Of a DNA stretch of 64,000 nucleotides, positions 46,376 through 57,250 are shown in pieces. This DNA is from Gemmatimonadaceae bacterium. GTDB taxonomy: Bacteria; Gemmatimonadota; Gemmatimonadetes; Gemmatimonadales; Gemmatimonadaceae. The notes beneath the pieces were generated by a model. That model made no database searches and was not told where the DNA came from. It worked only from the letters and a program-made list of their open reading frames with translations. The stretch is taken from NCBI GenBank assembly GCA_019186945.1, contig JABAQJ010000001.1, forward strand, positions 248,001-312,000, given 5' to 3'. Made by a program: the position numbers and the translations under genes. Position 1 is the stretch's first letter. The number at the start of each line of letters is the position of its first letter.

Positions 46376-46726
46376 TTGCACGGTATCGTGCCGTGCAGCT
46401 CCGGCATCATCCGCGCCTGCGTTGGATCCGGCGGATAAGCCCGGCAAGTTCCCGATTGGCTGCTTGGGTGGCGGGCTGAGCGTGCACACCGGCAAGCAGT
46501 CAGGAGAACGACAGGAGTACCAGGTATGCTGCGATGGCGGGGATGGGGCGCCTGGCAGGGCGCGGTCGAGGTGGGATCGCTGTTCAGGCAGGTAAGACGG
46601 CCACCATGGTGCGTCGGCAGGCTGGGGTTCCTGACGCATCTTCCGGGTTCCTCCGTCGCGTGCCGTCCGCCCGCACCGTACCTTCCGGCAAGGCCGGCCA
46701 GCATTCCGCTCAACCGTTCGGGCACC
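46376..46726. other. intergenic region before the carboxylate-amine ligase gene
   Basis: About 350 bases. Apart from the hairpin at its left end I see no feature. The frame of the next gene is open through part of it (from 46526), but the added residues do not match the family, so this is read as untranslated. Confidence 0.45.
46377..46397. terminator. intrinsic terminator hairpin
   Basis: TGCACGGTA / TGCCGTGCA with a TCG loop (nine pairs, one G:T), starting two bases after the stop of the serine-hydrolase gene. No T-run follows, so strength is uncertain. Confidence 0.6.
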
Positions 46727-47935
46727 ATGAAGCCACCGTCCCTGACCATCGGCGTGGAAGAAGAGTACCAGATCATCGATCCGCGTACTCGGGAGTTGCA
46801 GTCGTACATCACCCAGATTCTCGAGGAAGATCATCTCATCATCGGCCAGGTGAAGCCGGAGCTTCACCAGTCGATCGTGGAGGTGGGCACCCGGGTATGC
46901 CACACGCCGAGCGAGGTGCGCGATCAACTCGTGGCGTTGCGCAGCGGTGTGATGGAGCTGGCGGCTAAGAAGGGGCTCAAGATTGCGGCCGCCGGGACGC
47001 ACCCTTTCTCGCACTGGGCGGATCAGAAGATCACGCCGTTCGAGCGTTACATCGGCACGCGGGAGGCGATGGCGCAGCTGGCGCAGCAACTGCTGATTTT
47101 CGGCACGCACGTCCATATCGGCATCGACGATCCCGATTTCCTGATCGACGCCACGAATGTGACGCGCTACTTTCTGCCGCACATCCTCTGCCTGTCCACC
47201 TCGTCCCCGTTCTGGTTAGGCAGGGAAACCGGGCTCAAGTCGTACCGATCGGCGATCTTCCGTGCGTTTCCGCGCACCGGGATTCCCCGGTTCCTCTCGT
47301 CGTTCGCCGAGTATCAGAACTACATCAAGACGTTGCAGGCGACGGGTTCGATCCCGGATGGCTCGAAGATCTGGTGGGACGTGCGACCGCATTGGAAGTA
47401 TCCAACGCTCGAGTTCCGCATCTGCGACGTTTGCACAAGGGTAGACGAAGCGGTGTGCATTGCCGCTATCTTGCAGGCGCTCGTGTTCAAGATCTGGAAG
47501 ATGCGCCGGGACAACATCACGTTTCGCATCTATTCGTCGGACCTGATCGACGAAAACAAGTGGCGCGCTGTGCGTTACGGCTTGCAGGGGAAGTTGATCG
47601 ACTTCGGGAAGGAAGTGGAGCAACCAGCGCCGGTGCTGATCCGGGAGTTCATCGAGTGGTTCCTTGGCGATGTTCTCGACGAGCTTGGGACGCGCAAGGA
47701 GGTGGAGTATGCGTTCAGGATTCTGGAAGGCGGCACGAGCGCGGATCGACAGGTGGCGGTATACCGGCAGACCGGGAGCCTGAAGGCTGTAGTGGATCAG
47801 CTGATTGCCGAGACTGAGGAAGGGGTGCTGGCCGCGCCGGGATCCGAGGGGCTGCTGGCTCCCCGCCAGTCGCCGACGCGGGCGGTATCGGAGTTGCGGT
47901 ACTCGGAGACGGGTGAGGCACAGCCGTCAACATAG
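46727..47935 (+). CDS. GCS2-family carboxylate-amine ligase (YbdK-like)
   Basis: Encodes 402 residues from the ATG at 46727. The GCS2 signature is strong: [19 protein letters not shown] at the start, [30 protein letters not shown] and [18 protein letters not shown]. YbdK-type enzymes use ATP to join glutamate (or another acid) to an amine, by the glutamate-cysteine ligase mechanism, and have weak glutamate-cysteine ligase activity in E. coli. The natural amine here is unknown. It is followed after 36 bases by a class I amidotransferase-type hydrolase and then by a second GCS2 gene. Confidence 0.9.
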
Positions 47936-47971
47936 CAGCCGCCTTGCACTGCTTCTTGCTACTCAAAAGAG

Positions 47972-48751
47972 ATGAAGACGATCACACCACGCCGGCCGGT
48001 TATTGGCGTTACGACACAGACGTTGCACTCGATCGACGGGATCCCCGCAGGCTTGCCACAGTCTGTGGTGATGAACCAGCGGTACTACATCGCCGTCACA
48101 CTGGTTGGGGCGACACCGATACTGATTCCCCTGCTCGACGACGAGCCTGAGGCGTTGCGCGGCATCTACGACATCTGCGACGGTATTTTGATCCCGGGTG
48201 GCGTGGACGTCGATCCAACCTGTTTCGGCGAGGCGCCGCATCCCAAGCTGGGGCGGATCGATCCGGCGCGCGATCGAGTGGAGATGCAGATGACGAAGTG
48301 GGCGGTGGAGGATCGCAAGCCGCTGCTCGGGCTCTGTCGCGGGGCCCAGGTCATCAACGTCGCGCTGGGCGGGACGTTGTATCAGGATCTGGAATCGCAG
48401 TGCCCGGCCGCGATCAAGCACGATTACTTCCCGACACACGGATTCGAGCGCGACCACCTGGCGCACGAAGTGACGCTGACGAAAGACTCCCGGCTTCGCC
48501 ACCTGATGGAACTGGACCGCATTCCGGTGAACAGCATGCACCATCAGGGCATCAAGACGCTGGGTCGCGAACTTGTAGCATCGGCGGTTGCTCCTGACGG
48601 GTTGATCGAGGCAGTGGAGTCTGCCGACGATCACTTCCTGGTGGGCGTGCAGTGGCACCCCGAGGTCTTCGAACTGACGGACCCGCACACACGGCACGTG
48701 TTCCGATCTTTCATCGCGGCGTCCATGGAGTATCGCGCGAGACAGTCGTAG
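47972..48751 (+). CDS. gamma-glutamyl hydrolase (PuuD/class I amidotransferase-like)
   Basis: Encodes 259 residues. The triad is C122 (GLCRGAQ), H229 and E231 (QWHPEVF). The start VIGVTTQTLHSIDGIPAG and LIPGGVDVDPTCFGE match the gamma-glutamyl-gamma-aminobutyrate hydrolase group (PuuD-like) rather than glutaminase domains of biosynthetic amidotransferases. It should cleave gamma-glutamyl amide bonds in the cytoplasm. Sandwiched between two GCS2 ligases, it may remove or edit the gamma-glutamyl group that they attach. The start follows AAAAGAG. Confidence 0.88.
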   Translation: MKTITPRRPVIGVTTQTLHSIDGIPAGLPQSVVMNQRYYIAVTLVGATPILIPLLDDEPEALRGIYDICDGILIPGGVDVDPTCFGEAPHPKLGRIDPARDRVEMQMTKWAVEDRKPLLGLCRGAQVINVALGGTLYQDLESQCPAAIKHDYFPTHGFERDHLAHEVTLTKDSRLRHLMELDRIPVNSMHHQGIKTLGRELVASAVAPDGLIEAVESADDHFLVGVQWHPEVFELTDPHTRHVFRSFIAASMEYRARQS

Positions 48752-48978
48752 ACGCCGCGGTTCAACAGATGGCGGTGCGGGGCGCTGCGATGCACGCTTC
48801 GCGGTGGCATCTATCGGGCGTGCGGTCCCGTCGTTGCGCCAGGAAGGGGCGTGTCCGCTACCGAGCGGTGACGCGTTCGTGACGGTCATCCGTCAGTGTG
48901 CGGCCAGCAGTGTCGGGTGGCCGCCCGAAATCGACTTCGGGCCATCCTGACGCGAAATCCGGGGAAAGCCCGGTAGAG

Positions 48979-50499
48979 ATGGCGTCGTACTCGCGCGAGC
49001 GTGCTGCCATGGCACGGACCATCGATCGTACGTCGTTCCTCGACGCCGAATATGCGGCGTTCGCCGAGCGCCTCGAGTCGAACCTTCGGGCGCTGCGCAT
49101 GGTCCTCGACCGGCCCGGGTTCGGTGATGGAGATCCTTCGTTAGGCGCAGAATTGGAGTTCTCGATCGTCGACGATCGGGCGCGTCCGTTGATGCGGAAC
49201 ACGGACATCCTGAAGCGATGTGCGGACCCGCGTCTGGGGCTGGAGCTGGACAGGTTCAACCTCGAGTTCAACCTGACTCCCGTGTCAGCACGCGGTCATC
49301 CATTCTCGCATATGGAAGCGGAGGTGGCGGCGGCACTGGACATGACCAACCGGCTGGCGGCGGCTCATGGCGGTCGGGTGGTGCCGATCGGCATCCTGCC
49401 GACGCTCACCGAGGACGATCTTCAAGCCTCCGCCCTGACCGATGCACCGCGCTACCAGGCCCTGTCAGCCGGCGTCCGGCGGTTGCGTCACGCGCCGTCG
49501 GTGGTGCGCATTTGCGGCGAGGACGTGCTTCAGGTGACGAGTGCGGACATCGCGCTGGAGGGCGCTAACACGTCGTTCCAGGTACACTATCGCGTCCCGC
49601 CGCGGGATTTCGCTCGCGCGTACAATGCGGCGCAGCTGGCTCTTCCCGTCGCGATGGCCGTCAGTTCCAACTCACCGACGTTTCTCGGCCGGCGGTTGTG
49701 GGACGAAACCCGTATTGCCCTGTTCAAACAGGCGCTGGATTACCGGGATCTGGAGGCGACGCGCTGGCGTCCGCCGACGCGTGTGGGCTTCGGTCACGGG
49801 TGGCTGAGGAGGGACGCGTGGGAAGCGTTCGCTGAGTCGGTGGCGCTGTTTCCAGCGATCTTCCCGATCGTGGACGACGAAGATGCCGAAGGCGTAGCCG
49901 CTACGGGTGGCGTACCGCGGTTGCGAGAGCTGCGGCTGCACCAAGGAACCATCTGGCGCTGGAATCGCGCGATCTATGACCCGGGTTTCGACGGTCATCT
50001 GCGGATCGAAATGCGGGCCCTCCCGTCAGGGCCAACGCCTGTCGACATGGTGGCCGGTGCGGCCTTGCTGACAGGGCTGACGCGGGCTCTCACGGATCGG
50101 ATGGACGATCTGCTGCCTCGATTTCCGTTCGCATACGCCGAATACAACTTCTATCGGGCGGCACAGTACGGTCTGGGAGCGTCGCTTCTGTGGCCCGGCG
50201 GCGGGCGCTGTGGCGAATCGCCGATGGAGCGTCCCGCAGTGGCCGTGGTTCGCGATGCGTTGCCCATGGCGGAAGCGGGGCTGGAAGCGCTCGGTGTGGA
50301 TAGCGCGGAGGCGACGCGTCTACTGGGGATCGTGCGGGGCCGGGTGGACAGCGGAGTGACAGCGGCACGGTGGCAGCGCCGATGCTTCGAGCGATTGTCG
50401 ATTGCACACCGGCGCGACGAAGCGCTGGCAGAGCTGGTCGAGCTCTACCTGGTGCATTCCCGATCGGGTCGACCTGTGCACGAGTGGCCCGACGCCTGA
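48979..50499 (+). CDS. second GCS2-family ligase-like protein
   Basis: Encodes 506 residues from the ATG at 48979 (GGGGAAAG upstream); ATGs at 48898 and 49009 are alternatives. The GCS2 fold is recognisable from SLGAELEFSIVDDRARPL, LDRFNLEFNLTPVSARGHP and GHLRIEMRALPSGPTPVD, but it is longer and diverged from the first copy. HYRVPPRDFARAYNAAQL is a probable substrate-loop region. It may attach glutamate to a second amine. The last residues contain a short HEWPDA tail. It is 297 bases upstream of the caspase-clan operon on the same strand; whether they share a transcript is not known. Confidence 0.8.
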   Translation: MASYSRERAAMARTIDRTSFLDAEYAAFAERLESNLRALRMVLDRPGFGDGDPSLGAELEFSIVDDRARPLMRNTDILKRCADPRLGLELDRFNLEFNLTPVSARGHPFSHMEAEVAAALDMTNRLAAAHGGRVVPIGILPTLTEDDLQASALTDAPRYQALSAGVRRLRHAPSVVRICGEDVLQVTSADIALEGANTSFQVHYRVPPRDFARAYNAAQLALPVAMAVSSNSPTFLGRRLWDETRIALFKQALDYRDLEATRWRPPTRVGFGHGWLRRDAWEAFAESVALFPAIFPIVDDEDAEGVAATGGVPRLRELRLHQGTIWRWNRAIYDPGFDGHLRIEMRALPSGPTPVDMVAGAALLTGLTRALTDRMDDLLPRFPFAYAEYNFYRAAQYGLGASLLWPGGGRCGESPMERPAVAVVRDALPMAEAGLEALGVDSAEATRLLGIVRGRVDSGVTAARWQRRCFERLSIAHRRDEALAELVELYLVHSRSGRPVHEWPDA

Positions 50500-50796: not shown

Positions 50797-52152
50797 ATGT
50801 CCGACGAGATCCGGGGACCACTGCAGCTCTCCGGCATCCAGATGCCGACGTGGATCCTCCGCTACAATGCGGACGGGATCTGTGAATCGCCGCTGACCCG
50901 AGGCGATCTCTTGGAGCGGCTGAGAGCCGAAGAGCACTCCGATGTCATCCTCTTCTCTCATGGCTGGAACAACGACTTCGATGCCGCGTCGCGCTTGTAT
51001 GGCCGATTTCTGGCCGCCTTCGAAGGGTTGCTTCCATCACATCCGGCGAACCGCACGTTCACGCCGGTCTTCGTTGGCATCACCTGGCCCAGCACTTGGC
51101 TGGTGTTCGACAACGGGCCGAAGATCGCCGGGGAGGAATCGCTGGAAGGCAAACGGACCGAAGCATCGATCGATGTCATGTCGCGGGCGATCGCCGAGGC
51201 CGGCACTCCGGACAAGGCGGCCCGGTTCCGTGAGCTGATGGGCAAGCCAACCGTCACTGCTGAGGAGTCCGAGGAACTGTCGCGGTTGATGCTGCCGCTG
51301 CTGGCGTCCGCGTCGGACGACGAGATCGGCGATGGCGCGCGGGATCTGACGGCAAGCGACCTGGCCAGTGCTGCCGAGGCAACAGCACTGGTCGAACATT
51401 CGTCAACAGCGCCGGCGGACCTCGACGATTTTGGTGGGACGGGCGATGGGGGCGCGACCGCTGGCCCGAAGGCTGCCGGCGCCCTCTCGTTCCTCGATCC
51501 GCGGACCTACCTCCGACTGGCCTCCGTCTGGCAGATGAAAGATCGCGCCGGTCGCGTGGGGGCGCGGGCGATGTCTGCTCTCATGCGTGACATCCAGACC
51601 GCGACCTCCGCCAGGATTCACGCGGTGGGGCACTCGTATGGGTGCAAGGTGATGCTCTCAGGCATCTGTGCCGGACCGGCATTCGTACGGCCGCTGGACT
51701 CGTTGCTCCTGCTGCAGCCGGCGTGTTCGTATCTTTGCTTTGCGGCGAGTGTCCCGGGGACGAGGAGGGCCGGCGGTTACCGGCGGGCGCTGGATCCGTC
51801 GATGGTGCGTCATCCGATATTTTCCACGTACAGTCGGAAGGATCTTCCGCTGCATGCCACGTTTCATCTGTCGTTGCGCCGGGATTCCGACGCCGGAGAG
51901 CCGCTCATTGCGGCGTCGGCAACATCGGCCGGCGATCCGCCGAGCCGGTACGCCGCGTTAGGTGGCTACGGGCCGCGTGGCGCTGGCGAGGAATTGCGCG
52001 ATCCGATTCCTGCTGCCGGTGAGGACTACGGCTCCCTTGGGACGGCATCGATCATCGGCCTCGATGGGTCTAAGGGACGGATCTCGGGACACGGCGATAT
52101 TGCCAAGCCCGAGACGGCGTGGGCGCTCCACCGGCTGGTGTTTCGCAAGTAA
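50797..52152 (+). CDS. alpha/beta-hydrolase with HGWNN and GHSYG motifs
   Basis: Encodes 451 residues from the ATG at 50797; an ATG 12 bases upstream gives MGAAM, and the GGGGG between them is at ribosome-site distance from the second ATG. The oxyanion region is VILFSHGWNND (residues 50-60), the nucleophile elbow is GHS280YG, and D349 (SRKDLP) and H432 (GHGD) complete a possible triad. The segment of about 110-265 between them is long, charged and serine-rich, a lid or regulatory insert. No signal or membrane helix is seen. First gene of a tightly spaced operon with three caspase-clan-like proteins. Confidence 0.82.
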   Translation: MSDEIRGPLQLSGIQMPTWILRYNADGICESPLTRGDLLERLRAEEHSDVILFSHGWNNDFDAASRLYGRFLAAFEGLLPSHPANRTFTPVFVGITWPSTWLVFDNGPKIAGEESLEGKRTEASIDVMSRAIAEAGTPDKAARFRELMGKPTVTAEESEELSRLMLPLLASASDDEIGDGARDLTASDLASAAEATALVEHSSTAPADLDDFGGTGDGGATAGPKAAGALSFLDPRTYLRLASVWQMKDRAGRVGARAMSALMRDIQTATSARIHAVGHSYGCKVMLSGICAGPAFVRPLDSLLLLQPACSYLCFAASVPGTRRAGGYRRALDPSMVRHPIFSTYSRKDLPLHATFHLSLRRDSDAGEPLIAASATSAGDPPSRYAALGGYGPRGAGEELRDPIPAAGEDYGSLGTASIIGLDGSKGRISGHGDIAKPETAWALHRLVFRK

Positions 52153-52163
52153 CCGGGGGCCAC

Positions 52164-53639
52164 ATGGCGGTCTATCTGAAGAAGCGGCATCACCTGCTTG
52201 CGCTCAAGCTCTCGTTGCGTCGGGAGGGTCGGGTGTGGGTCGTGCATCTCGACCTGGAGACGCATGCTGGCGACGAACCCAGGACCTTGGCGACGTTTCG
52301 GATGCCGACGGAGAACCTGGGACTGCCGCGCTACGTCGACGCCACGTCGGCGCCGTCGTTCTTCATTCCTGGGGAGGTCACCGGAGACTTGCGCGAACGG
52401 ATCGCCGAGTTGCAGCTGGAGCCATCTCATCCGCTCTGGTTGCATCTGGTGAAGCCGTATGGGTACCTGGGGGTGGTGCCGTGGGAGGATCTGCTGGTGC
52501 CGGAGTTGCAGCGACCGGTCTTGCGGCTACCCGACTTCCTCGAGCCGGCGCGCGAGCGGCGAGATACGCTCGACGTGGCCCTGTGCTGCTGCGTGCCGGC
52601 ATCCGAACGGTCGTTCCCGGTCCCACAGGCGCTCGGTGAGATCGCGGCCGCGGTCCTCCGGGGTTCGCGCCGGCCGCACACCAGGATTCACGTGTTTCCC
52701 GACATCGGCTCCTTTGCGCAGGTGCGCGACGCATTCGAGGGCGAACCGCGCGTCTCCGTACACGACCCGTCGGCAGCGCGTCGCTACCTCGGTCAACGGA
52801 TCGAGGGAGCCTCTGCCAGTGCGGTCACGAGCCCCTGGTTGCAGTGGATGCGGGATGCGATGGAAGGTCGGTCGCTGGATACCGTGCATTTCGTCTGCCG
52901 CGGTTACTTCGCCGACGAGCGTCCCTGTCTGACGGTGACCGAGTCTCCGGCGGAGAGCCAGGATGCACGAACCGCGCGATACCTTGGCGTGGCGGAAACG
53001 TCCACGTTTCTCAACCAGACCGGCGCGTGGTCCGTGGTGTGTACCGCGCCACCGGACGGCAGCCCGGAGCTCGGGCTACGTTACTTCGTCGATACTCTGG
53101 CGCAGGTTCGACCCGGCCCGGCACTGTTTCACGATTCCAACCGGGACGATGGCCTCGTTGCACTGCAGAGTGCCTACGAGTTCCTGTTTTCGCCGGATCC
53201 GCGCGAGGCGATCGCCGGTCCGCTCTTCATGTACTGCCAGCCGGCACTGGTCGACACGCAGCTCCCCGTGGAGGCGAAATCCGCGCTCGGCGCGACTATC
53301 GTCAGTTTCAACTCGGATTTGTTCAACCCGCCCGTGACGGCATCCGACTCGGAGAAGCCACGGGCAGCCCCAGATCGGAAGCGCGCCAAGCGCATGACGC
53401 AGACGGAAGCCATATCTGCTCCCTCCGAGGAAGCGCCGGCGGATAGTGACGTGCCGAACTGGCTCTCGTCGACACAACGTTTCGTCGAGGAGCAGATGCA
53501 GGAGGCGCAGCGACGGGACGCAAGCCTGGGGCGTGCGCCGAATCCCCGGATGCAGGCCCGCACGTCAGCGATTGCCGAGACGCTCGCCGATGTCCAGAGC
53601 ATCATAAAGAGCTTCGCCGCCTCCAGGCTGAAGCCCTGA
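52164..53639 (+). CDS. CHAT-like protein lacking the catalytic dyad
   Basis: Encodes 491 residues from the ATG at 52164 (GGGGGCC upstream), 11 bases after the hydrolase stop. VVPWEDLLVPEL (104-115) is the strand pattern that opens CHAT domains. The position of the catalytic histidine reads VHFVCRGYF (241-249; the usual second GHG is CRG), and the cysteine strand reads WSVVCTAPPDGS (289-300) instead of LNxC-E/S-G, so both catalytic residues appear lost. The C-terminal third (about 390-491) is polar and helical (FVEEQMQEAQRRD). A scaffold, inhibitor or pseudo-protease partner of the next protein is the likely role. Confidence 0.72.
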   Translation: MAVYLKKRHHLLALKLSLRREGRVWVVHLDLETHAGDEPRTLATFRMPTENLGLPRYVDATSAPSFFIPGEVTGDLRERIAELQLEPSHPLWLHLVKPYGYLGVVPWEDLLVPELQRPVLRLPDFLEPARERRDTLDVALCCCVPASERSFPVPQALGEIAAAVLRGSRRPHTRIHVFPDIGSFAQVRDAFEGEPRVSVHDPSAARRYLGQRIEGASASAVTSPWLQWMRDAMEGRSLDTVHFVCRGYFADERPCLTVTESPAESQDARTARYLGVAETSTFLNQTGAWSVVCTAPPDGSPELGLRYFVDTLAQVRPGPALFHDSNRDDGLVALQSAYEFLFSPDPREAIAGPLFMYCQPALVDTQLPVEAKSALGATIVSFNSDLFNPPVTASDSEKPRAAPDRKRAKRMTQTEAISAPSEEAPADSDVPNWLSSTQRFVEEQMQEAQRRDASLGRAPNPRMQARTSAIAETLADVQSIIKSFAASRLKP

Positions 53640-53653
53640 CGATGGGAGCCGCC

Positions 53654-55024
53654 ATGCAACCACGGACCATCGTCTCCATAGAGCAGGACACCGAGGGAGC
53701 GCTGGTGGCGCGCCTGTTGAAGGCGGAAAGCAATCTGCCGAACGCTCGCCAGTCGATACCGATAGGTTTCGATGCCGGTGCAATTCCTGCGATGGACGAC
53801 GAAGCGAAGGTACAACTGTATGGGGCGCTGCTGCGCGACGCGCTGAAGAAACACCCCGCGATCCAGAGCGCCCTTTCGGCCATGTTCCAGCTGCCGGATG
53901 GTCAGTCGCGTGCGCTTTGCTTCGAGATCGTTGCCCTGCAGGGAGAGCAGATCCGATGGGAGGCTCTGTGCGACGATGCCGGTGACTTCGTTGCGCTTGG
54001 CGGTCGATGCCGGGTGAGCCGGATAGCCGACGAGGTCAGCCGGCAGGATGCCGGCATTCGCCCGTTCAACCTGCCGCTGAGGATCTGCGCCTTCATGTCG
54101 GCCGCTGGCCGCGATGCGACGCCCGAGTGGACCGCGTTCGTGTCCGCATTCGATGGCGCGCGTTCGGCGGGTCTGGCCCTGGAGGCGCGCGTGTTCGTGG
54201 GACAGCAACAGCTTCTCGACCGGATCCGGCAGGAACTCGCGGACGGGCAGCATCCGGGCGTCACCATAGCTTCCATGCCGTCGTCCGACCTGGATGTGGA
54301 GGGAGCACTCAACGAGTATCGGCCGCAACTGGTACACTTCTTCTGCCACGGATCGTCCGGGTTCGGCAAGGCGTACCTGGAGTTGGCGACCATCGTCGAC
54401 CACGACACGGAGAGCGTCGAAGGATCGGTCGTGGTGGAAGTCAATTCGCTGGTTGAGGCTGGCGGAGTGCGAAACGCGTGGTTGGTGGTGCTGAACTGCT
54501 GCGAAGGAGCGGCGGCCGGCGAACGACTCGCGTCCATGGCTTTCCGGATCGTGGCGAATGGGAGCGTTCCAGCGGTCATCGGCATGCAGGAGCCCATTCC
54601 GGCAGGCGACGCAAACGTGTTCTGCGAGAAGCTCTATCCCGAACTCTTCCGCCTGCTCTCCGCGACAGCAACGGAGAGTCTGAGCAAGCCGGTGGCGCTG
54701 GACCTGACGGAGACGCTCGTCCCGGCCCGACGCGCCATTCGCAATCGCCACAGGAAGAACCCGTCGAGTTTCCACAACTGGACGCTGCCTGTCCTGTACG
54801 TCCAGAAGGAACCGCTGCAGGTACAATGCCGGCCGGCAGAGTCGGACGAACACTTGGCGTTGATGCGGGATCGGGTGAGGCTGGTCGCAGGTCTCCTGCG
54901 GCAGCTTCCGCCAGATGCGGATCCCGCGTTGCGCGCGCAGTTCCTGGGAGTTCTCGACAAGCCGCCTGTGGTGCCGCCGGAGTTGCGGCCGGACTCGATG
55001 GGACAGATTCCAATCGGCCTGTAG
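53654..55024 (+). CDS. CHAT-family cysteine protease
   Basis: Encodes 456 residues. As with the first gene, two in-frame ATGs bracket a GGGAG site (53644-53648), which favours the second, at 53654. The CHAT domain runs from about residue 95 to 385: QIRWEALCDD, LVHFFCHGSSG with H232, and WLVVLNCCEGAAAGE with C283, an intact His/Cys dyad of clan CD. FRIVANGSVPAVIGMQEPIP follows, the usual S1-pocket region. CHAT enzymes are related to separase and caspases, and in known systems cleave specific protein partners. The partner may be the hydrolase encoded in the same operon. Confidence 0.85.
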   Translation: MQPRTIVSIEQDTEGALVARLLKAESNLPNARQSIPIGFDAGAIPAMDDEAKVQLYGALLRDALKKHPAIQSALSAMFQLPDGQSRALCFEIVALQGEQIRWEALCDDAGDFVALGGRCRVSRIADEVSRQDAGIRPFNLPLRICAFMSAAGRDATPEWTAFVSAFDGARSAGLALEARVFVGQQQLLDRIRQELADGQHPGVTIASMPSSDLDVEGALNEYRPQLVHFFCHGSSGFGKAYLELATIVDHDTESVEGSVVVEVNSLVEAGGVRNAWLVVLNCCEGAAAGERLASMAFRIVANGSVPAVIGMQEPIPAGDANVFCEKLYPELFRLLSATATESLSKPVALDLTETLVPARRAIRNRHRKNPSSFHNWTLPVLYVQKEPLQVQCRPAESDEHLALMRDRVRLVAGLLRQLPPDADPALRAQFLGVLDKPPVVPPELRPDSMGQIPIGL

Positions 55025-55026
55025 GC

Positions 55027-56433
55027 ATGTTCGCGCTCTCCGATCTGCTGCGGATCAACGCCTGGACCGGTGCGGAATCGCCGTCAGCCCAGCCGGCGCT
55101 GAAGTGGGGTCTGAAACGCCGCATGGACGGCCCGTCGGCGGACGACGGGAAGCTGGCCGGACCCGCGAAAGTCACGTCCGAATCCAACTGGAGGCATCCG
55201 GCCATCGGTTGGGGACTCGTGCTGCCGGACAACGACGAACTCGATGCCGCAGCGCGCGCGACTGCCGATGACGCACCACACGCGATCCAGGAATTGGTCG
55301 CGGCGCGTAACAACGCACCGGTGTTCCGGTACGTGACCGGGCACCAGGGAGGATTCCTGCGCCGCTACTTCAGCGACGGGAAGTTCCAGGATCCATCGCT
55401 GGCCGGGAGCGCACCAGGGATCGCGCGCGGGCAGCTACCACGCTACCTGCTCATTTACGCGCCGCCGGAGCGAATACCGTGGCGTTTCCAGTACGTGGCC
55501 AACTCCAGCACCTTCGTCGGACGAATCTGGCTCGAGGGTGACGCACTAACGAACTACGTCAATGCCCTCCTCAAGGACTGGAGCGATACCCCAAGTAACC
55601 CGTTGGCGCCGGTGGTGTGGAGCGTAAACCTCGGAGAGCCGGACATCACGTGGCTGATGGACACGGTGATTTCGAAAAGACTCCGCGACAGGTTTGCCGA
55701 GGGGGAGCTGACGGAAGGCGCGAGCATGTTCAACGACGACGCCACGGCCGCGGCACTGGCATCGGCGCTGGCGAAACACACTCCATCGCTGATCGCGTCC
55801 ACGAGCCACGGAATGACTGGCCCGCTTTCCACGCCAGCGCAGATGAACGCGGACCTCGGGATGCCGGTGGGCGTCGATCACGACCTCGTACGACCGGAGA
55901 CGCTGCTGGATGGCTGGGCGCCTAACGGGGCGATCTGGTACGCGCACGCCTGCTGTTCGGCCGGAAGCGACGCCAGTTCGCGGTACGCAGGGCTGTTCGA
56001 TCCGGGGTCGTCGGTGGCCACGACGCTGGCAGGCGTTGCCGCGACCTGCCAGGATCGGGTGGCGCCGTTGCCGACGGCCCTGCTTGGTGCGAAGCACCCA
56101 TTGCGCGCGTTCGCCGGTCATGTGGAACCGACTTTCGATTGGACCTTGCGCAACCCGGAGACCGGCCAGCCGCTGGCGCACGCGATCGTCGATGCCCTGT
56201 ACACGCGACTGTACCAGCAGGGCGAGGATCGGATGACGTTAGGTCACGCCCTGACGAAAGTGTATGCCGAGGCGGGCGCGTTCCTGGCACAACACGCGCA
56301 GGCGCTCGAGGCTGTCAACCAGGGTGCCGAGCTCGCCCGCGAGCGCGCGCTCTATCGCCAGCTCGTGGCGATGGATCGCCAGCAACTGGTGATACTCGGC
56401 GATCCGACGGTGATGCTCCCACCGCTACCCTGA
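55027..56433 (+). CDS. caspase-clan (gingipain/C25-like) cysteine protease
   Basis: Encodes 468 residues starting two bases after the CHAT gene stop. H261 lies in IASTSHGMTG and C309/C310 in WYAHACCSAGSD, the paired His and Cys of clan CD peptidases. The ending LVILGDPTVMLPP is the pattern that closes C25 (gingipain) and related caspase-like domains. The N-terminal region of about 170 residues (FQYVANSSTFVGRIWLEG) is not assigned. No signal peptide is seen, so it acts inside the cell, unlike secreted gingipains. A third caspase-clan member in one operon suggests a proteolytic cascade. Confidence 0.78.
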   Translation: MFALSDLLRINAWTGAESPSAQPALKWGLKRRMDGPSADDGKLAGPAKVTSESNWRHPAIGWGLVLPDNDELDAAARATADDAPHAIQELVAARNNAPVFRYVTGHQGGFLRRYFSDGKFQDPSLAGSAPGIARGQLPRYLLIYAPPERIPWRFQYVANSSTFVGRIWLEGDALTNYVNALLKDWSDTPSNPLAPVVWSVNLGEPDITWLMDTVISKRLRDRFAEGELTEGASMFNDDATAAALASALAKHTPSLIASTSHGMTGPLSTPAQMNADLGMPVGVDHDLVRPETLLDGWAPNGAIWYAHACCSAGSDASSRYAGLFDPGSSVATTLAGVAATCQDRVAPLPTALLGAKHPLRAFAGHVEPTFDWTLRNPETGQPLAHAIVDALYTRLYQQGEDRMTLGHALTKVYAEAGAFLAQHAQALEAVNQGAELARERALYRQLVAMDRQQLVILGDPTVMLPPLP

Positions 56434-56434
56434 G

Positions 56435-57250
56435 GTGACGCCGCTCGCGTCGGCCGGCGATGGGAAGAGGCGGGCCGATCCGCGCCGCCGGCGAATCGTC
56501 CGCGGCATCCTCGTCATGCTCGTGGCGGCCATCGGTAACGCCGGATGCACGCACGACATCCACCTCGCACCCGCGCCTCCCCTGGCGGCAGCCACAACAA
56601 CTACCGGGCCGTGGGCAAGCATGATCTTCGCCGCCCGCACGGACAGTGGTGTGGTGGTGATCGACTTGGGGTGGACCGGTGCCGACAAGGCACTGCGGTC
56701 CCTGCTCACGCAGTTGGGAGCCACAACGGCAGACGTGCGCTGGACCTTCCTGACGCACGCCCATCGCGACCACATCGGCGCCTGGCGCACGGTGCAAGCA
56801 TCGACACTCGTGCTTGGACGCGACGAGATCCCTTTCTTCACAGGCAGCGCGCGGTACACCGGACTGGTACCTCGGATCGGCGATCGGCTGGTGTCGTATC
56901 CGCATCCGGGAAAGGGCGAGCTCCGTCTGCTGCCGATCGCGACCGATACCGCGTTCGTACTGGGCCGCGACACGCTTCGAGCCTTCCCCGTACCCGGTCA
57001 CACCGCGGGGAGCACGGTCTACCTCTTTCGTGAGACGCTGTTCGCCGGGGACGCCGTAAACTGGCGTGTGACGAGCGGTTTTCGTGGCGCGCGAAGCGAG
57101 TATTCCGATGATCCGAAGCGGAGCCGTGCGAGCTTGGCGTCGCTGCTTCGGCGGATCGATTCGGCAGGTGTGCGCTGGCGCGTCCTGTGCACGGCACACG
57201 GGAAATGCGGGCTTGCGGATTCAACGCTCCGCGCGAGGATTCTGCGGTAG
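56435..57250 (+). CDS. metallo-beta-lactamase-fold lipoprotein
   Basis: Encodes 271 residues from a GTG one base after the previous stop; an ATG at 56516 is an alternative. A basic N-region and ILVMLVAAIGNAGC form a lipoprotein signal. The MBL zinc motif is H108-A-H110-R-D112-H113 (THAHRDHIG), followed by PGHTAGSTVYLF and AGDAVNWR. It may hydrolyse a beta-lactam or another ester or thioester in the periplasm. The close spacing suggests readthrough from the caspase-clan operon, but export and Gemmatimonadota-style composition suggest an independent role. Confidence 0.82.
   Translation: MTPLASAGDGKRRADPRRRRIVRGILVMLVAAIGNAGCTHDIHLAPAPPLAAATTTTGPWASMIFAARTDSGVVVIDLGWTGADKALRSLLTQLGATTADVRWTFLTHAHRDHIGAWRTVQASTLVLGRDEIPFFTGSARYTGLVPRIGDRLVSYPHPGKGELRLLPIATDTAFVLGRDTLRAFPVPGHTAGSTVYLFRETLFAGDAVNWRVTSGFRGARSEYSDDPKRSRASLASLLRRIDSAGVRWRVLCTAHGKCGLADSTLRARILR

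Follow-up and report, generated by a model that had tools for sequence, protein, structure and literature searches.

Gene content of the locus and fold assignments

The window, i.e. the whole 64,000-nucleotide stretch of the Gemmatimonadaceae contig JABAQJ010000001.1 analyzed here, carries between positions 50797 and 56433 a cassette of four co-oriented genes, termed HYD, DEG, CHAT and C25-like. As in the original prediction, the open reading frames lie on one strand and are separated by 11, 14 and 2 bp (Table 1). An in-frame ATG upstream at 53642 is also possible as the start of CHAT, and this gene is present as a single copy in its genome. A Pfam scan was performed on the four cassette genes and two neighbours. 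Upstream of the cassette, the run at 46526-50499 appears by eye to encode a GCS2/YbdK carboxylate-amine ligase, a C26-type glutamine amidotransferase and a second GCS2-like protein, with PF04107 confirmed by Pfam for 48898-50499 only; these genes may constitute a small peptide or amide ligase cluster.

Table 1. Genes of the cassette and the adjoining downstream gene (positions in the window)
Gene	Position	Strand	Length	Assignment
HYD	50797-52152	+	451 aa	DUF900-type alpha/beta-hydrolase, probably cytosolic
DEG	52164-53639	+	491 aa	CHAT-derived pseudoprotease
CHAT	53654-55024	+	456 aa	intact CHAT (caspase-clan) protease
C25-like	55027-56433	+	468 aa	gingipain-like caspase-clan protease
MBL-fold hydrolase	56435-57250			directly downstream of the cassette; lipoprotein-like N-terminus; resembles secreted metallo-hydrolases

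Using structure and profile searches, all four fold assignments of the original prediction were supported. HYD, taken to be an alpha/beta-hydrolase, matched Pfam DUF900 (31 bits against a cut-off of 20.5) and carries the Ser-Asp-His triad of such enzymes, S280/D349/H432, which was kept in all 51 cassette-type members and, with other HYD types added, in 72/72 of the wider family; an SHGWN motif lies near residue 55. The AF2 model of HYD (pLDDT 85) gave weak Foldseek matches only, mostly to lipase-type alpha/beta-hydrolases, with Nir2 DDHD, bacterial and pancreatic lipases, LCAT and Tle3 among the matches, so that the substrate class is a guess. In the same model, a helical insert was found at residues ~105-235, including a low-confidence Gly/Pro/Asp-rich loop at 203-228. 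Streptomyces-type HYD copies to which no protease gene is adjacent carry the insert as well, and its presence is therefore no clear indicator of gating. A D-D-F-G-like motif in the disordered loop was considered as a protease site and set aside: it is frequent in the C25 type (G213 in 82%), but its weak conservation overall and the insert in protease-free copies make it a lead only.

DEG had no Pfam match, and its homology to the CHAT family was revealed by profile-profile alignment (hhalign E 1.3e-12 over 221 columns). The positions of the catalytic His and Cys are occupied by R246 and approximately P296, respectively, and across the family the His was found in 13/47 members, the Cys, which is usually replaced by Pro, in 1/47, and both in none of the 47. 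DEG is thus a conserved pseudoprotease, in agreement with the degenerate CHAT protein originally proposed. The third protein, predicted to be an intact CHAT protease, matched Pfam PF12770 (35.2 bits against a cut-off of 24) and keeps both catalytic residues, H232 and C283, in 51 of 51 members. Its profile matched the SAVED-CHAT structure 8tl0 (E 1.3e-6), and PADLOC gave a weak match to the SAVED_CHAT model (15 bits) over the CHAT part only.

The C25-like protein had no Pfam match, and neither the protein nor its profile matched gingipains by sequence in Pfam, NCBIfam or the PDB. Its AF2 model (pLDDT 92.1) gave gingipain RgpB as the best Foldseek match (E 7.1e-7, prob 1.00, TM 0.41-0.49), followed by weaker matches to Craspase TPR-CHAT and SAVED-CHAT (8d9g and 8tl0), and distant relatives carry the PGAP name 'C25 family cysteine peptidase'. 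Within the family, H261 was kept in 56/57 members, C309 in 57/57 and C310 in 53/57, so that of the two cysteines left open in the gingipain/caspase-like assignment, C309 is the likely nucleophile; a C-terminal GDP motif at 458-460 was invariant (57/57). The fold and the His/Cys dyad of peptidase family C25 were therefore both found (RgpB by Foldseek; H261 and C309). The likeness to RgpB lies in this fold and in the order of the dyad; the two differ in that identity is ~11% with a TM-score below 0.5, and the C25-like protein has no visible signal peptide and is probably cytosolic. A simple hydropathy scan detected no general transmembrane or signal-like segment in any of the four families, which suggests that all four proteins are cytosolic.

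Conservation and spread of the cassette

A plasmid search revealed the C25-like protein in Bradyrhizobium, Gemmobacter and Embleya (41-49% identity), where HYD, DEG and CHAT lie directly upstream in unchanged order; the cassette was found on conjugative as well as other plasmids. A single scan with C25-based patterns, covering 84,980 species genomes, yielded 56 further loci, a census that is tilted toward C25-containing forms and under-counts forms without C25, because the loci were gathered by a C25 query. The scan loci belong to Proteobacteria, Actinobacteria and Chloroflexota, and to single MAGs labelled Acidobacteria and Dehalococcoidia. Using iterated profiles, the order HYD-DEG-CHAT-C25 on one strand was kept in 43 of the 62 loci, window included, and the full-cassette carriers are mainly Proteobacteria and Actinobacteria. 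The median gaps across cassette loci are 9, -2.5 and -4 bp, and one gene is interrupted in a few full-cassette loci (L028, L057, L059 and L060; L numbers denote individual loci). Order and strand kept at 43 loci indicate a linkage far beyond chance. The original prediction had staked itself on conserved co-occurrence of the four genes and on their folds; the linkage proved to be conserved in several bacterial phyla, and the folds held.

Clustering of all genes called in the loci, performed in search of a fifth flanking gene or a sensor, found no other family in >5 loci, and the unit therefore consists of four genes. The MBL-fold gene downstream of the window cassette was considered as a fifth component or a canu-like nuclease and was rejected, since it is not recurrent at other cassettes; relatives in which the cassette was not detected also carry this gene, which speaks against membership. 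Furthermore, pairwise distances were correlated among the four families (38 loci; r 0.75-0.87, Mantel p<=0.0005). C25 is the best conserved family, with a mean identity of 42%, followed by HYD (39%), CHAT (27%) and DEG (25%), the last being the fastest diverging.

Within the phylum of the window, a strong CHAT match was found in 1/298 genomes, namely the window's own, and three weak matches elsewhere among these genomes resemble generic CHAT. Likewise, C25 was present in 1/146 genomes of one genus and 2/397 of one order. Such patchy occurrence fits an accessory conflict-type system. An empty-site comparison in the window's relatives was uninformative, the flanking genes not being syntenic there, and a phage or prophage origin was rejected, as no match was found in viral contigs or in phage records. 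Collectively, the four genes are a conserved module whose members travel together in several bacterial phyla, and the cassette is best read as one horizontally transferred, mobile functional module.

Variant loci, alternative protease partners and genomic context

Several loci depart from the full cassette. At L056, a single 935-aa ORF encodes a HYD-C25 fusion, and HYD adjoins C25 with no intervening DEG-CHAT pair at L010, L022, L034, L040, L042 and L045. Reciprocally, DEG-CHAT-C25 occurs without HYD at L036 and L041, and in two Bradyrhizobium genomes a papain-family (C1) protease takes the HYD position before DEG-CHAT-C25 (L046:6058-7104 and L061:6059-7105); HYD is therefore not indispensable. 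Near HYD and C25 of L022, a 606-aa ORF (L022:5543-7363) has a C-terminal part that resembles ribosomal protein S5 by eye, and could be either a real fusion or an assembly or annotation artefact. On a Sinorhizobium plasmid (L066:9173-14634), HYD-C25 has two neighbours, one matching the PADLOC peptidase_U41 model and one large protein with an ATP-binding annotation, for which no Pfam match was found over the 1358 aa examined. On cyanobacterial plasmids, HYD occurs with C25 and/or large CHAT proteins.

The distant relatives of HYD are also accompanied by proteases. Across 16 further genomes from the phylum of the window, a protease gene lies directly upstream in every case (16/16), encoding an S8 subtilase in 14 and a CHAT protease in 2. 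An S8 gene also precedes HYD in Rhizobium (3 checked), in Rhodococcus (2) and at one Nocardia copy, and no adjacent protease was found at three actinobacterial copies, two of them Streptomyces-type and one a further Nocardia copy; altogether, an S8 subtilase or CHAT protease adjoins 22 of the 25 distant relatives examined. Two-gene units of S8 subtilase and HYD, ~5-30 bp apart, were found at L071-L084, L067, L069, L087-L089 and L109. They share the hydrolase family with the cassette and have the protease gene upstream, and differ in that a subtilase replaces CHAT and C25 and that the genes number two instead of four. The PADLOC 'subtilase' model matches the protease of such a pair and no PADLOC model exists for the hydrolase; these units may represent a separate protease-hydrolase system. 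Solo actinobacterial HYD copies (L107:110-2994 and L108:5520-8206) lie beside a conserved secreted protein, similar by eye to DUF1343, with no protease nearby. These comparisons showed that one hydrolase family is repeatedly paired with unrelated proteases, i.e. S8, CHAT and C25-like.

The C25 family has a further context. At L021, in a Bradyrhizobium, and at L113, C25 lies directly upstream of an LCAT-type hydrolase and a caspase/VMAP-C protein, with VMAP-C present at L021; both operons also encode a large multidomain protein and, as judged by eye, a MoxR-like ATPase. C25 relatives at these two loci thus sit inside a VMAP/MoxR conflict operon. The enrichment near known defence genes that the original prediction had named as a check was not observed around the cassettes themselves: 1/125 proteins flanking 16 cassette loci matched PADLOC at E<=1e-15, which is no excess over same-contig controls, whose rate was not lower and which happened to include a CBASS-type locus. 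The flanks consist largely of metabolic genes.

Candidate mechanisms and relation to known systems

Neither PADLOC nor the papers searched list this gene set, and the literature yielded related systems only. In VMAP systems, caspase-superfamily domains always occur with a neighbouring alpha/beta-hydrolase gene, with which they are said to work jointly (Kaur et al. 2020, PMC7159879). The cassette resembles the VMAP/MoxR-vWA ternary systems in combining a caspase-superfamily protease with a neighbouring alpha/beta-hydrolase, and its C25 relatives lie within such operons (L021 and L113); however, its hydrolase is of the DUF900 type and not the LCAT type, it adds CHAT, pseudo-CHAT and gingipain-like proteins, and no MoxR, vWA, VMAP-C or EAD partner was detected in the four cassette genes or the two scanned neighbours. 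A 2025 study described proteases, including a caspase, that activate pro-nucleases in defence, among them the caspase-nuclease canu loci (PMC12799240). The cassette shares with canu and the Hachiman/AVAST nuclease-protease pairs of that study the recurrent pairing of an enzyme with proteases of varied families. In canu, the caspase-type protease activates its partner, whereas for the cassette activation is a proposal; the canu partner is an MBL nuclease, and no MBL-type nuclease partner of a caspase belongs to the cassette, which has a lipase-like alpha/beta-hydrolase instead. The type III CRISPR SAVED-CHAT effector and Craspase TPR-CHAT share the theme of a CHAT protease as a regulated switch, and similarity to the cassette was found in sequence (CHAT profile against 8tl0) and, more weakly, in fold (C25 model against 8tl0 and 8d9g). 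Their gene sets are different, and neither a SAVED or TPR Pfam domain nor a Cas protein was found among the cassette genes and neighbours tested.

As a mechanism, a protease-controlled operon with caspase-clan enzymes is plausible. The explanation that we favour, at somewhat less than even confidence, is that the cassette acts as a proteolytic switch in the cytosol, by which proteases of the caspase clan control a lipase/esterase-type hydrolase, with the DEG/CHAT pair as the regulated part. In such a switch, DEG and CHAT may form a complex that serves as initiator or sensor and responds to an invader, giving the cassette a role in defence; the pair would activate, or act together with, the gingipain-like protease, so that the proteases would work sequentially; and these would control the activity of HYD, their putative substrate and the most likely effector, whose target could be membrane lipids or another acyl ester and whose release might lead to growth arrest or death. 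The switch is supported by the HYD-C25 fusion at L056, by the alternative proteases beside HYD and by the C25 relatives in VMAP/MoxR operons, and also by the conserved order, co-inheritance, plasmid carriage and patchy occurrence of the cassette and by published precedents (PMC7159879 and PMC12799240). Against it stand the lack of a defence-gene excess, the three protease-free HYD copies in which the insert is kept, and the loci without HYD. The idea in the original prediction that the hydrolase is held under protease control therefore stood in part: the pairing of HYD relatives with S8, CHAT and C25-like proteases, the one fusion and the published caspase-hydrolase pattern (PMC7159879) favour it, but the insert, being found in the Streptomyces-type copies, is not specific to protease-paired hydrolases. 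A narrower version, in which the active/inactive CHAT pair would sense the trigger and switch on the gingipain-like protease, which would release a pro-lipase that damages the membrane, is a speculative, previously undescribed death switch with an initiator-executioner layout, which we consider rather unlikely.

The loci lacking HYD also invite the reading that the C25-like protease is itself the executioner, with CHAT activating C25, cellular or viral proteins being degraded, and HYD or the papain acting as an upstream modulator or trigger and not as the killer. The HYD-free loci L036 and L041, the C1 papain in the HYD position at L046 and L061, and the standing of C25 as the best conserved family are all in line with this reading, for which type III CRISPR SAVED-CHAT, where CHAT lies upstream of a caspase-like protease, is a known precedent. 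We nevertheless judge it unlikely, since the HYD triad is fully conserved and, at loci that lack C25, HYD is accompanied by other proteases, which suggests that the hydrolase is the constant output there. The largely metabolic flanks without defence-gene excess at 16 cassettes, together with the solo Streptomyces-type HYD copies beside a conserved secreted protein, would instead suit a cytosolic processing or quality-control function, such as deacylation and proteolysis of modified proteins or of storage-granule coats, rather than a conflict system; the extreme patchiness, plasmid carriage and transfer between phyla as a unit, as well as the C25 relatives within VMAP/MoxR conflict operons, speak against this function, which we likewise judge unlikely. 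That HYD acts as the toxin within a toxin-antitoxin-like unit, remaining uncut while the proteases destroy or release an inhibitor such as DEG, would account for a conserved dead CHAT relative that directly follows HYD and diverges fastest, but is highly improbable, as some loci have HYD-C25 and no DEG, and binding of DEG to HYD is purely hypothetical.

Activation of effectors by proteolysis is a recently recognised theme of bacterial immunity, represented by nuclease-protease pairs, CHAT and caspase systems. In the cassette, a lipase-type hydrolase is combined with two predicted active proteases of the caspase clan and a conserved pseudoprotease, all within a compact unit that crosses phyla. 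If the death switch is true, it would be part of a wider protease-hydrolase class in which subtilase, CHAT and C25 are swapped around one hydrolase family. If the proteolytic switch is real, the cassette would offer a small four-gene model for studying effector control by a bacterial caspase relay and an inactive protease relative, and the hydrolase family would provide candidate pro-lipases for screening.
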